Origin: Paludibacteraceae bacterium
Lineage (GTDB): Bacteria > Bacteroidota > Bacteroidia > Bacteroidales > Paludibacteraceae
Assembly: GCA_017446585.1 (NCBI GenBank)
Contig: JAFSQL010000005.1
Span: 1-64,000, forward strand
Direction: 5' to 3'
DNA length: 64,000 bases
Of the stretch, positions 1-55,515 are shown in pieces. Within the stretch, counting starts at the first letter, position 1; the number at the start of each line of letters is the position of its first letter. The notes below the pieces were generated by a model. The model made no database searches. It saw only the letters and a list, made by a program, of their open reading frames with translations, and was not told the origin of the DNA. Both the position numbers and the translations under genes were made by a program.

Positions 1-1125
1 CTTGTGGTCAGAATCACAGACGGAACGTACCCATACGTAGTAAGTAGTGCTTGCCGTGAGACCTGTCAACGCTTTCGTTTTGCTCGTTGAAGTCGTGTTG
101 GCGGCGGTGCCTGCCACGGGAGCGGTGGATGAAGTCGAGTAATAAATGTCGTAACTTGCCGCGTTCGCGGCATCGGTGATGGTGAGGGTTGTGCCGGAAG
201 AAGTCGTGCTGCTTGCAGTCACTGCAGTAGGGACGGCAGGGGTGGAGCAAGAAGCGGATGTAATGGTCACGTAAGTTGGCGTTGAATAGTTGTATGCTAA
301 GTCACGATGGACGATGGCATATCGGTCGCCTGCACTAAATGTGCCAGAATAAGAAGTTGCAGCAGAAGTGACGGAGTTTGATACTACTGTCCAGTGTCCA
401 GATTGGTCTGTGGCAGAGACCGCATAAAGACCTTGGTCATTGAGAGCAAGGTCGTCGGATTCACCTGATGTCCGTCTGAGAATTAATGTGTTTTGAATCC
501 CTGTGTTTGCATCGGTACCATTAGTCCATGTAATAGACGAAGTGGTGGCACTTGCGGAAGTTGCGGAGGTTGGTTTCGTGAGGTCGGTCGCCACATTATC
601 ACTTGTCACATATACTACTATGTCGTCCAAATATACTTTATCTCCTGTGGTAGCGGTTTGCGTTGTTATTCGTAATTCGGTGCTTGTGTAATCAGAAGTA
701 TTACCAGTCTTTTGTCCATAACCTGTTATTCGTTGCCAACTAGTGGTAATGGCAGAATTCGGAGAAACTGATGCAAATGCGCTTCCATTATATAATTGGT
801 GAGTCTTGAGTGTGATGCTATTATTGGTTGTTTTTTTTATGTAACAAATATAATGTACGTATTGTTTACCACCTTTAAATGTTGCAGGCAGGTTTTGAAC
901 TTTAACGGTTTTTGCAGATGTATTATTATTATTCTGCTCCAGTGAATAAGAACCCGTACGATGTTCGGTTGATGATATACTGCGGCTGCCATCCCCAGTA
1001 GACGTAGGAAAGCCAGTCTCGGATATATTGTTGTTCTCAAAACCGTATGCCGTGTCTGCCAATGCTTCTATATTTACGCAGAAGAAAGAGGAAAGTAGTG
1101 AAAGTGTCAATAAGATTTTTCTCAT
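1..1125 (-). CDS. Secreted protein with FN3-like domain, 3' end outside window
   Basis: The reading frame is open from an ATG at 1125-1123 to the left edge (375 codons, no stop), so the C-terminus is missing. The N-terminus MRKILLTLSLLSSFF...ALA is a signal peptide. About residues 30-185 resemble a jelly-roll/carbohydrate-binding-like segment ending in 'KVYLDDIVVYV', a form common in secreted Bacteroidota proteins. The last ~75 residues look like a fibronectin type III domain ('ASYDIYYSTSSTAP', 'LTGLTASTTYYVWVRSV'). It is probably surface-exposed or secreted; a T9SS sorting domain may lie beyond the edge. The 32 bp over its start codon are identical to those at 55262-55293, and it lies downstream of the leader element at 1511-1711. 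Substrate and function are unknown. Confidence 0.8.
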   Translation of the reverse strand, partial: MRKILLTLSLLSSFFCVNIEALADTAYGFENNNISETGFPTSTGDGSRSISSTEHRTGSYSLEQNNNNTSAKTVKVQNLPATFKGGKQYVHYICYIKKTTNNSITLKTHQLYNGSAFASVSPNSAITTSWQRITGYGQKTGNTSDYTSTELRITTQTATTGDKVYLDDIVVYVTSDNVATDLTKPTSATSASATTSSITWTNGTDANTGIQNTLILRRTSGESDDLALNDQGLYAVSATDQSGHWTVVSNSVTSAATSYSGTFSAGDRYAIVHRDLAYNYSTPTYVTITSASCSTPAVPTAVTASSTTSSGTTLTITDAANAASYDIYYSTSSTAPVAGTAANTTSTSKTKALTGLTASTTYYVWVRSVCDSDHK

Positions 1126-1155
1126 AATGATTATGGTGTTTAGTTTGTTCATTTA

Positions 1156-1482
1156 TTATTGTTTTTGCCAAATTGCGTTAGGTCCAAGCATATCAAAGTC
1201 GGTCGTATCAATGAATTTTCCGCTTATTTTCCTGATTCCTAAATTGTTTTCGTTATTCTTCAGAAATTTAGCGATGTCGCCATTGACAACTCGAAACCCA
1301 ATGCCCCCGTTCGGTCTTTTGCCCGGTTTTGCCTTGTTTATTGCGTCGTACAAATCAGAGATGTATTCTTCTTCGTACATCTTTCGATATTTGCGAATAA
1401 ACTGATGGGAAGAGAAAAGTCGATGATGTGCATTGAAGTGTTCCTTAATGACTTGTTGCGCTTGTTGTGGTGTAATTGGCAT
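1156..1482 (-). CDS. Small unknown protein between leader element and secreted-protein gene
   Basis: 108 residues, not recognised. It has no signal peptide or membrane segment and is charged and hydrophilic ('YRKMYEEEYISDLYDAINKAKPGKRP'), probably a small cytoplasmic alpha/beta protein. The ATG at 1482-1480 is preceded by AGGAG about 9 bases upstream, an unusually good Shine-Dalgarno match for this window, where start sites generally lack one. The gene looks more A/T-rich in codon choice than the housekeeping genes. It lies exactly between two blocks that are nearly contiguous in the other copy of the cassette (near 55.3 kb), so it was either inserted here or lost there. It should be co-transcribed with the secreted-protein gene 30 bp downstream. 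Function unknown. Confidence 0.6.
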   Translation of the reverse strand: MPITPQQAQQVIKEHFNAHHRLFSSHQFIRKYRKMYEEEYISDLYDAINKAKPGKRPNGGIGFRVVNGDIAKFLKNNENNLGIRKISGKFIDTTDFDMLGPNAIWQKQ

Positions 1483-1527
1483 CGTTGTTTCTCCTAAAAA
1501 TAGTTGTTCAAAAAGTATAAAAACAGT

Positions 1528-1559
1528 TCACGCCCGGGCGCAAAAGCGTCCGAGCGTGA
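1528..1559 (-). terminator. Terminator-like hairpin inside leader copy 1
   Basis: The arms TCACGCCCGGGCGC and GCGTCCGAGCGTGA flank an AAAA loop (TTTT in the minus-strand transcript). Two positions are imperfect, one of them a G-U wobble in the minus-strand RNA. The minus-strand transcript continues with ACTGTTTTTATACTTTTT. This is the layout of an intrinsic terminator, placed upstream of the coding sequences rather than after a gene. Confidence 0.55.
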
Positions 1560-1627
1560 TAAGAAATGATAATATAATAAGGTTATAAGCTGTTGAGAGC
1601 GTGTGAATTACCCCCCCCGTGCTGCGC

Positions 1628-1650
1628 ACAACTAATTGATAATTAGTTGT
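1628..1650. promoter_or_regulatory. Perfect 10-bp inverted repeat in leader copy 1
   Basis: ACAACTAATT and AATTAGTTGT are exact reverse complements separated by GAT. The same 23 bp recur unchanged at 55432-55454. It could be an RNA hairpin just downstream of the transcription start or a dimeric operator. Confidence 0.6.
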
Positions 1651-1703
1651 TTGCTTGTAGTATTTGCTTGTTGCTGTCAAGAGATAGTGTTGAATGTCAG
1701 TGG

Positions 1704-1711
1704 CAAAGATA
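1704..1711 (-). promoter_or_regulatory. -7 box for leader copy 1
   Basis: On the minus strand the sequence reads TATCTTTG, matching the Bacteroidota -7 consensus TAnnTTTG. Transcription would start near 1697 and run through the leader into the small gene and the secreted-protein gene. Confidence 0.55.
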
Positions 1712-7673: not shown

Positions 7674-8279
7674 TTAGGAATGTTTGTCATGAAGTTTGAG
7701 GAAGTCCGCCAGTTGCCGCATGGCACGTCCACGGTGTGAGATGGCGTTCTTCTCTTCGTCGGTCATTTCGGCAAAGGTACGGCTTTCGCCTTCGGGGATG
7801 AAGACGGGGTCGTAGCCAAATCCTTCGCTACCGCCCCGCCGCAGGGCAATATGTCCGTTGACAATGCCTTCGAACTGGTGGCACTCGTCGCCAAGGAGCA
7901 GGGTGACCACGGTGCGAAAACGCGCCTTACGATTGGTGACACCTTCCATGTTGCGCATGAGCAGGTCGAGGTTGGCTGCCATGTCGTGGGTACCATTGGC
8001 GTAGCGCGCGGAGTGAACACCCGGAGCACCGTTGAGGGCTTCGACCTCAAGTCCCGTGTCGTCGCTGAAGCAGTCAACGCCGTAGTGTTGCTTGACCCAT
8101 TGCGCTTTCTGCAGTGAATTGCCCTCGAGGGTGGGTTGCGTCTCCGGAATGTCGTCGTTGCAAGCAATGTCCTTCAGTCCCACGACATTGTAGGCGGAAC
8201 CTATGATTTCACGCACCTCACGAAGTTTGTTGAGATTGGCGGTGGCGAAAACGATGCGTTGTTTTTCCATAGTCGTCAT
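7674..8279 (-). CDS. rdgB: XTP/dITP diphosphatase (RdgB/HAM1 family)
   Basis: 201 residues, normal for the family. The enzyme hydrolyses non-canonical purine triphosphates (dITP, XTP) and keeps them out of DNA. The nucleotide-binding N-terminus is 'IVFATANLNKLREV'. The signature 'SDDTGLEVEALNGAPGVHSARYA' contains the metal and catalytic aspartates, and the family C-terminus 'ISHRGRAMRQLADFL' is intact. Its start overlaps the stop of the EnvC-like gene by 4 bp, so translation is probably coupled. Either ATG 8279 or ATG 8270 (MEKQRIVF) could be the start. Confidence 0.93.
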   Translation of the reverse strand: MTTMEKQRIVFATANLNKLREVREIIGSAYNVVGLKDIACNDDIPETQPTLEGNSLQKAQWVKQHYGVDCFSDDTGLEVEALNGAPGVHSARYANGTHDMAANLDLLMRNMEGVTNRKARFRTVVTLLLGDECHQFEGIVNGHIALRRGGSEGFGYDPVFIPEGESRTFAEMTDEEKNAISHRGRAMRQLADFLKLHDKHS

Positions 8280-54402: not shown

Positions 54403-54437
54403 CAACCGCCGCGGCAAGCGAAGGCGCACGGCGGTTG
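54403..54437 (-). terminator. Intrinsic terminator after the 255-residue secreted-protein gene
   Basis: CAACCGCCG and CGGCGGTTG pair exactly, with a 17-nt loop. The minus-strand transcript then reads CTGTTTTTCTTCTTTT. The rest of the 54286-54513 gap has no recognisable gene. Confidence 0.7.
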
Positions 54438-54513
54438 ACCTATCATTAGGAGAAAAAATATCTTTGCTATTGGAGGTGATAGGAATTTTAGGAAGACATA
54501 GGAGGGGTTTTGA

Positions 54514-55281
54514 TTAGTTCAGCGAGATGGTGAGGCCTGGGTCGGTGCAGAAGTCTTCTACCCACTTGGCATAGAGGGTGGTGTTGGCAGCGATGCTGCT
54601 TATGGTTGCACCTACGGCATAGTTGGTGCCGGAACCATTGGGCGCCGTGTTCCATCCATCAAAAGTATATCCCGTTTTTACTAAAGAGCCGGTGTTGCCT
54701 AACACAGTGACGTTAGAACCAGCGGTATAAGGGCTGCTTGCGTCGGTTGGCGCGGTACCGCCCGTGTTGCCGTTTCCATTGTAAGTGACGGTGTAGGTAG
54801 TAGAACCGCCAGAGGTAGAATATACCAAATCAATGGAGGTGATGGTTGTGTTTCTGTTAGAAGAAGAGGATGTTGCATCGGTACAAGTCAAAGTAAAAGT
54901 CATGCTTGACGTTATAGAAAGACCTGTTATGGCTGTTCCGAAGGTTGATACTGAAGTGCCGTTTAAGTCGTATGTCGTATTATTATTTTTTGTTCCGTTA
55001 ACAGTGAAACTTGTTATGGTAACTCCAGATGCAATTGTGAAAGTGATTGTAGCAACCTTTTTTTCAGTTTTTCCTTGTACGGTAATTTTTGAACCCGAAT
55101 TATATGCAACTTGGTGTCCTCCTGCTCCTGCAATTGCAGTTACTGCTGTTCCATCTGCTATAAAAAAGAATGAACCTGCTGAACCAGTAGGACTGCTGGC
55201 AGTTGATATAGTTGCATTTGCTGCCCACGCAGTGACGGAGCAGAGGAGGGTGGTAAGTAAGGTCAATAAGATTTTTCTCAT
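54514..55281 (-). CDS. Secreted protein with InlB-type repeat, apparently truncated
   Basis: 255 residues. The signal peptide MRKILLTLLTTLLCSVTAWA shares its first eight residues (MRKILLTL) with the protein at 1-1125. A beta-sandwich-like region (about 25-155; 'KVATITFTIASGVTITSFTVNG') is followed by one InlB/Flg_new repeat (about 160-240; 'TYTVTYNGNGNTGGTAPTDA', 'KTGYTFDGWNTAPNGSGTNYAV', 'NTTLYAKWVEDF'). It ends 'CTDPGLTISLN' with no T9SS sorting domain, and such proteins are usually longer, so it may be a truncated cargo or a secreted fragment. It lies downstream of leader copy 2. Confidence 0.75.
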   Translation of the reverse strand: MRKILLTLLTTLLCSVTAWAANATISTASSPTGSAGSFFFIADGTAVTAIAGAGGHQVAYNSGSKITVQGKTEKKVATITFTIASGVTITSFTVNGTKNNNTTYDLNGTSVSTFGTAITGLSITSSMTFTLTCTDATSSSSNRNTTITSIDLVYSTSGGSTTYTVTYNGNGNTGGTAPTDASSPYTAGSNVTVLGNTGSLVKTGYTFDGWNTAPNGSGTNYAVGATISSIAANTTLYAKWVEDFCTDPGLTISLN

Positions 55282-55332
55282 AATGATTATGGTATTTGGT
55301 TATTGTTCGCGAGTGAAAAGTATAAAAACAAG

Positions 55333-55364
55333 TCACGCCCGGACGCAAAAGTGTCCGAGCGTGA
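55333..55364 (-). terminator. Terminator-like hairpin inside leader copy 2
   Basis: Arms TCACGCCCGGAC and GTCCGAGCGTGA pair around an eight-base loop, with one G-U wobble in minus-strand RNA. The transcript continues CTTGTTTTTATACTTTT. It sits between the promoter and the secreted-protein start, so read-through must happen for expression from this promoter. Confidence 0.55.
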
Positions 55365-55431
55365 TAAAAAAGTGTGTAAAAATAAGGTTATAAACGGTTG
55401 AGAGAGTGGAAATTACCCCCCCGTGCTGCGC

Positions 55432-55454
55432 ACAACTAATTGATAATTAGTTGT
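55432..55454. promoter_or_regulatory. Perfect 10-bp inverted repeat in leader copy 2
   Basis: ACAACTAATT / GAT / AATTAGTTGT, identical to copy 1 including the loop. This is the longest unchanged block inside the leader, including the flanking GTGCTGCGC. Confidence 0.6.
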
Positions 55455-55507
55455 TTGCGTGTAATATTTGATTGTGTTGTTCAAGAGATAGCGTTGAATG
55501 TCAGCGG

Positions 55508-55515
55508 CAAAGTTA
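55508..55515 (-). promoter_or_regulatory. -7 box for leader copy 2
   Basis: On the minus strand the sequence reads TAACTTTG, matching TAnnTTTG; start of transcription near 55501. 55516-55645 holds no further recognisable element. Confidence 0.55.

Follow-up and report, generated by a model that had tools for sequence, protein, structure and literature searches.

A repeated structured leader ahead of secreted-protein-like genes in one Paludibacteraceae genome is a candidate attenuator

Variable surface-protein families are usually viewed as being switched one locus at a time, by promoter inversion or by slippage in coding repeats. In the available part of PMC7315117, UpxY-type control in Bacteroides is described for surface-polysaccharide operons that are held by premature termination in the untranslated region. 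This control of capsule operons demonstrates that brakes of the kind proposed here occur in the group (PMC7315117, same part). The tlpB leader of Helicobacter pylori carries a G-repeat that is acted on by the sRNA RepG, with lengths of 6-16 G tested (excerpt of PMC8295292). The CwpV switch of Clostridium difficile operates by inversion of a 195-bp segment between inverted repeats (excerpt of PMC2784873).

The window analysed here comprises 64,000 nucleotides of a Paludibacteraceae genome and contains a real leader repeat at 1711-1511 and 55515-55316, both on the minus strand (copies E1 and E2). The two are 87% identical by BLAST (E = 1.1e-62 with the longer query and 1.7e-62 with 1511-1711 as query), and 172 of 202 alignment columns are identical (range 85-87%). 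The match noted in the first-pass annotation thus stands, although its wording, almost base for base, was generous. The common order of parts that it described is borne out by sequence and alignment. Its statement that the element occurs twice is superseded, as the genome's own assembly (1.20 Mb in 16 contigs, 51.6% complete) holds eleven copies, E1 to E11. BLAST located ten places and the covariance model R1 a different ten; R1 and a further model, R2, together yield the eleven.

Read in the sense direction, the leader consists of a TAnnTTTG box, a spacer, a hairpin (P1), a tract of 6-8 G, a TAA with the conserved CTCTCAACC stretch, a second spacer, a GC-rich hairpin and, usually, a U-tract. 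TAnnTTTG is the Bacteroides -7 consensus as quoted in the accessible part of PMC7366714. The parts of the two window copies are the following.

1704..1711, minus strand: -7 box TATCTTTG of E1, which fits TAnnTTTG (sequence)
55508..55515, minus strand: -7 box TAACTTTG of E2, which fits TAnnTTTG (sequence)
1628..1650, minus strand: P1 of E1, in which a stem of 10 bp closes a 3-nt loop, with three more pairs past a 2-nt bulge (alignment, folding)
55432..55454, minus strand: P1 of E2 (alignment, folding)
1611..1618, minus strand: G-tract of E1, 8 G (sequence)
55416..55422, minus strand: G-tract of E2, 7 G (sequence)
1528..1559, minus strand: second GC-rich hairpin of E1, putative attenuator terminator (alignment, folding, terminator scan)
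55333..55364, minus strand: second GC-rich hairpin of E2, putative attenuator terminator (folding, pair counts, terminator scan)
1519..1523, minus strand: U-tract after the second hairpin of E1 (sequence)
55324-55328, minus strand: U-tract after the second hairpin of E2 (sequence)

On the sense strand of the window R2 matched only E1 and E2, and its two weak matches on the antisense strand (17.2 bits) are the P1 palindrome read from the opposite strand. The box is kept in ten of the eleven copies, being absent from E10, and P1 is a 13-bp hairpin (10 bp and three further pairs beyond the bulge). Box and P1 are 63 nt apart in nine of the ten box-bearing copies, counting E11, for which 62 was printed owing to an anchor one base earlier; in E9 the distance is 52 nt, about one helical turn shorter. 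The gap between P1 and the G-tract is 9 to 11 nt. From E1 to E11 the tract measures 8, 7, 7, 7, 7, 7, lost, 7, 6, 7 and 7 G. As with tlpB in the excerpt of PMC8295292, a surface-related gene has a homopolymeric run of G in its 5' leader, here of 6-8 G. In contrast to tlpB, the tract here has a hairpin ahead of it, at a fixed distance, and a terminator-like hairpin behind it. This second hairpin is present in all copies except E10, and a U-rich tail follows it in nine of these ten (E11 has none). A terminator-like hairpin in a surface-protein leader, proposed to decide expression after initiation, is also the point of likeness with CwpV (excerpt of PMC2784873). Inverted repeats of the kind that flank the CwpV switch were limited, for both window copies, to two weak pairs (14 nt at 86% and 16 nt at 81%, 542 and 675 nt apart).

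Among nine copies, P1 has a mean pairwise identity of 0.95 and the -7 box one of 0.93, compared with 0.64 and 0.70 for the spacers. The second hairpin reaches only 0.76 by its letters, because several of its pairs change together. E7 and E10 look like decaying copies, as E7 has no G-tract and only a 112-aa short ORF behind it, and E10 has neither box nor second hairpin. In E10 (L026 near 7893-7965), nine A are inserted ahead of the seven G, marking a mutational hot spot at the tract.

Each of the eleven copies is followed, in the same orientation, by an ORF whose start resembles a signal peptide, mostly MRKILLTL... (by eye). As first noted, both window copies precede genes of this secreted-protein-like kind, with a 108-aa ORF intervening at the copy at 1511.

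1156..1482, minus strand: small ORF of 108 aa between the E1 leader and the secreted gene (ORF translation)
1..1152, minus strand: secreted-protein-like gene with MRKI start codon at 1123-1125, truncated by the contig end (ORF translation)
54514..55281, minus strand: secreted protein of 255 aa behind E2, with an MRKILLTL start and a Listeria-Bacteroides repeat, ending in CTDPGLTISLN

Three of the secreted proteins were scanned and have Listeria-Bacteroides repeats and Ig-like domains in their bodies. A small ORF of ~92-151 aa precedes the secreted gene in five of the eleven copies (E1, E4, E5, E6 and E9). Those of E1 and E5 are homologous (38% identity over 108 aligned residues), while the others align at 10-15%; relatives of this pair occur in two of 120 family genomes, one of which is the own genome. 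The small ORFs belong to no family in Pfam, NCBIfam or PADLOC. A single-sequence structure model reached a pLDDT of 68.9 and had no Foldseek match at E 0.001 (best 2.7), and no sequence relative was found in the PDB.

The leader forms one end of a larger cassette, in which it is followed by a variable secreted protein, in some copies with a small ORF in between, and then by a conserved 3' terminator block. This block, TTTTTTCTCCTAATNATAGGTCA with a terminator-like hairpin, comes after the secreted gene, from which it is separated in E11 by one further ORF. In the E2 cassette it reads as follows.

54437..54458, minus strand: 3' block TTTTTTCTCCTAATGATAGGTC, the reverse complement of the cassette gene starts
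54404..54436, minus strand: 3' terminator hairpin of the cassette, then a T-rich tail (alignment, terminator scan)

The block is found in seven cassettes whose far end lies in the assembly (E2 to E6, E9 and E11) and at two places near contig ends; it was not seen at E7. Its hairpin shows two-sided changes in the C9 and C16 copies (alignment by eye). In most copies, 15 of 16 bases of the block are the reverse complement of the region around the cassette start codons, and 20 of 20 match the ribosome-binding region of a short ORF in E12, a related cassette without this leader. Genome-wide, the pattern ATNATTANGAGAAAA has 22 sites, 21 of them in cassettes, and a control with the reversed pattern has none. 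The sites divide into nine 3' blocks, nine MRKI starts, three short-ORF starts and one lone site. Duplex energies weakly support pairing between the 5' and 3' parts of the mRNA: all nine tested cassette starts reach -18.5 kcal/mol or lower with some 3' block, and the support is weak because five of 76 control starts attain the level of the weakest cassette start. The E11 start and its own 3' block mismatch at the variable base. The inverted start motif may be an RNA-RNA contact or a DNA repeat.

Several features of the surroundings were seen in passing. The lone site (L094 1501-1522; G000:C10 near 23684) has no cassette and adjoins a tRNA-Ser gene at L094 1575-1662; it may represent an empty attachment site or have survived by chance. 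A leader of a second kind, with a short ORF for a G.CGG.LLP-like peptide and hairpins, precedes the same MRKI proteins at L077 ~1600-2000 (G000:C14 near 55.6-56.0 kb). It also lies behind the leaders of E8 and E11, which thus have both kinds, and E12 has the second kind alone. An extra ORF of 226 and 214 aa, with a restriction-nuclease-type look by eye, follows the secreted gene in L058 (the E11 cassette) and L059 (the C9 end), respectively. Gene pairs that look nucleotidyltransferase/HEPN-like by eye lie downstream of the C9 and C14-end cassettes. Four contigs of the assembly (G000) end in one coding repeat of the cassette proteins, VAGTAANTTSTSKTKALTGL (C13:1, C11:1, C9:24829 and C14:208328). 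Such ends point to assembly breaks at near-identical stretches common to several loci, a sign of recent exchange.

The E1 and E2 leaders fold at z-scores of -4.84 and -5.84, and none of 200 shuffles was as good in either case. Unguided, RNAalifold on nine copies returned P1, a helix between the G-tract and CUCUC (P2) and the terminator-like hairpin, with a small covariation term (-0.53). Given this structure, six pairs in the nine copies show two-sided changes, in 11 cells; shuffles gave 4.0 +/- 1.6 cells and 0 of 500 reached 11. In the same copies 92.4% of cells are paired, as against 32-45% when the partners are slid. The number of further pair types shows no excess (13 versus 13.1 in shuffles, 329/500). 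Five of the six two-sided pairs belong to the second hairpin, one to P1 and none to the G-tract helix. When all eleven copies are counted, two-sided changes affect three pairs of P1 (in E5, E10 and E11), a number reached by 5 of 500 shuffles, and two more of its pairs show wobble changes that preserve pairing. P1 and the second hairpin thus keep their pairing through two-sided changes. P2, predicted by folding yet without any two-sided change, is unproven and was set aside. The changes are few and shared, since all copies are paralogs of one genome. E8, E9 and E11, which share part of a replaced hairpin, may have inherited it as one, so that independent events are fewer than the cells counted. 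With this caveat, which touches part of the terminator evidence, the two-sided changes speak against the copies being remnants of a single recent duplication without compensatory change, the outcome that the first-pass annotation had named as fatal to its proposal.

The Infernal search against Rfam that had been suggested was run, and no Rfam family matches the leader. With Rfam 15, the window gave two tRNAs only at gathering, and the loci of ten copies (L001-L010, E11 excluded) gave no match at E up to 5. A DNA search of 101 relatives matched two, the own genome and G014, the latter over 28 bp of spacer only. R1 found the leader in one of 300 family genomes, again its own, and five other genomes of the same genus lack it; the 3' block pattern was likewise confined to the own genome among the 300. 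Among 393 genomes of the order, R2 matched the own genome and G669 (30.7 bits, E 0.0016 per genome, with ~0.6 expected over 393). The G669 match has G7TAATT...CTCT.AAC but no P1 stem, reads away from the neighbouring gene and was taken as chance. R2 matched none of 79 loci with related Listeria-Bacteroides-repeat proteins. The exact P1-plus-G pattern had no match in genome_contigs or viral_contigs, collections from which the records closest to the own genome may be absent, and the 3' block pattern had none in viral_contigs. A G-tract-plus-CTCTCAACC pattern hit two near-identical viral stretches, which have five G and by eye no P1 hairpin and were rejected. Among the papers listed by a literature search, none describes this leader.

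Going by these searches, the leader is convincingly found in one genome alone and is therefore not a phylogenetically broad RNA family. The initial suggestion of an unrecognised regulatory RNA family or a reused expression module holds in so far as the leader is reused and structured, with paired changes, no Rfam match and a sense position before secreted-like ORFs in all eleven cases. It does not hold as to breadth, and what is reused belongs to a bigger cassette with a conserved 3' end.

We give a probability of about 0.5 to the reading that this is an attenuation leader, so far of one genome, which co-regulates a paralogous surface-protein family through a factor acting at P1 and the G-tract. 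Transcription would start just past the TAnnTTTG box and produce a leader RNA of ~180 nt with P1, G-tract, GC hairpin and U-tract. By default, many transcripts would stop at the GC hairpin and U-tract. If a trans-acting factor (a protein or an RNA) recognised P1 together with the G-tract, RNA polymerase would be able to pass. Read-through would then express the small ORF and the secreted protein, and the whole family would be switched together. In this scheme we infer the transcription start site, the termination at the first hairpin-plus-U, its regulation and the factor itself.

What points to attenuation in the sequence is the set of eleven copies, the hairpin with a U-tail before the gene and spacers that vary while box, P1 and G-tract stay. 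In addition, inspection by eye revealed no further conserved promoter in the interval from the hairpin to the gene. The leader thus has the expected layout of an intrinsic-terminator attenuator, a GC hairpin with a U-tract between the putative promoter and the first gene. Against it stand E11 without a U-tract, E10 without box and hairpin, a modest terminator scan and, by eye, no sign of a common antiterminator. In the pattern scan, terminator-like sites were modestly above shuffles (2 versus 0.6 +/- 0.8, and 4 versus 1.8 +/- 1.4). By eye, E1 and E4-E7 contain a CACGCTC repeat that could pair with the 3' arm, and E2, E3, E8 and E9 do not; no antiterminator pairing common to all copies was seen in the alignment.

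A close parallel is provided by the UpxY/UpxZ capsule leaders, where transcription of several variable-surface loci terminates early, within the 5' untranslated region, if no factor steps in, a mechanism that is putative here (available part of PMC7315117). In the UpxY/UpxZ operons described there the regulator genes come first, and a small ORF takes this place in five of the eleven copies here. Unlike the capsule operons, the cassettes carry a secreted protein as cargo and have a leader sequence common to the loci. Their small ORFs fall outside the families of the databases named above, five of them having no NusG match in Pfam, and the assembled 51.6% of the genome offers no NusG paralogue. 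The sole NusG homologue found there sits within a housekeeping cluster, so that no UpxY-like factor is in view.

The same parts allow other readings. P1 might be a DNA operator, a 10-3-10 palindrome downstream of the start site on which a dimeric regulator blocks or aids transcription of the family. The dyad is perfect, the two-sided changes in P1 would preserve its symmetry as well as RNA pairing, and the box-to-P1 distance, constant in nine copies and shorter by about one helical turn in E9, suits such a site. However, G-U or U-G pairs break the DNA symmetry in E9 and in the possibly decaying E10, a palindrome accounts for neither the G-tract nor the second hairpin, and no regulator was found. 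We regard this as unlikely. The leader might also be a structured 5' UTR with a stabilising or insulating effect on the mRNA, duplicated together with the gene family and without any switch. This reading would explain the strong hairpins and the retention of the hairpin in E11 without its U-tract. As it assigns no role to the G-tract and CTCTCAACC stretch, and a U-rich tail does follow nine of ten hairpins, we think it quite unlikely. If each copy were a self-contained sRNA gene (promoter, RNA and terminator) acting in trans, its position would be incidental or historical. The distance from box to terminator fits an sRNA, and the G-tract could be a seed, the opposite of the tlpB case, where RepG targets a G-repeat in the leader (excerpt of PMC8295292). 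The invariable sense position before secreted-protein-like genes (by eye) and the lack of a second conserved promoter behind the hairpin make this highly improbable.

Finally, leader and 3' block might be the ends of a mobile or recombining cassette, with the hairpins and the inverted start and 3' motifs serving DNA recombination. Conserved ends around differing contents, inverted motif copies almost confined to cassettes (21 of 22 sites, none in the reversed control), the one site beside tRNA-Ser and the four contig ends within a shared coding repeat are in line with this. On the other hand, no transposase lies next to the copies (by eye), and none of three tyrosine-recombinase matches in the assembly is obviously cassette-borne, one being ~0.5 kb from E6. 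The leader has no match in plasmids or phages, replicons in which an insertion sequence or MITE might also occur. An empty site was not seen either, since the neighbourhood upstream of korA differs in the four same-genus genomes that were read. The korA gene itself differs by ~29-33% in DNA from those of the four same-genus genomes where it was found. Overall, we hold a mobile cassette to be very unlikely.

The leader also contains an open frame. A TTG 32 nt ahead of P1 is common to ten of the eleven copies; the frame from it is open as far as the G-tract in 10/10 and terminates at the TAA right after the tract, at 23 codons, in 7/11. The earlier statement that there is no common reading frame is thus not strictly correct, though substitutions in this frame have no coding signal.

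1528..1680, minus strand: open frame from the shared TTG of E1, which with 8 G extends over 50 codons and ends in a UGA at the hairpin's 3' base; no support for coding
55413..55484, minus strand: open frame of E2, which begins at the shared TTG and closes after 23 codons with the TAA behind the G-tract; no support for coding

Synonymous and non-synonymous changes number 55:172 in frame, compared with 44:171 and 66:188 in the other frames, and stop-making changes were 1 observed versus 1.40 expected downstream and 2 versus 2.50 upstream. A protein-coding leader peptide was rejected, as neither count differs from controls. Leader-peptide attenuators such as pyrBI resemble the leader in having an open frame up to the terminator-like hairpin or, as in E1, through it. 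They differ in that the frame here lacks a coding signal and that 7 G, the length in most copies, stop it before the hairpin.

A variant of the attenuation reading, which we consider a long shot, is a length-tunable attenuator in which the number of G, changed by slippage on DNA or of RNA polymerase, sets the frame of the ribosome. Ribosomes would enter at the shared TTG and then meet the G-tract. With 7 G the UAA next to the tract would halt them, so that the terminator forms; with 6 G they would stop at +25; with 8 G, as in E1, they would traverse the hairpin as far as the UGA at its base, keeping the gene on. The exits of such a switch are at the same places in nearly every copy, since stops at +0 and +25 in two frames occur in ten of eleven and the third frame (b) is open to or beyond the hairpin end in nine of eleven (to its end in E1 to E7 and further in E8 and E11, with stops at +59 in E9 and +35 in E10). 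The family would be phase-varied locus by locus, and the 3' block, complementary to its start codons, would add a second, cross-acting layer.

If the leader is only a paralogous 5' UTR, the finding is a modest one, an unnamed leader confined, on present evidence, to one genome. If the length switch is true, a single homopolymer in a shared leader would phase-vary all members of a surface-protein family, each locus on its own. If one structured leader on at least 11 such genes acts together with a shared 3' block complementary to their starts, this would mean co-regulation of, or choice among, variable surface proteins at the level of RNA.
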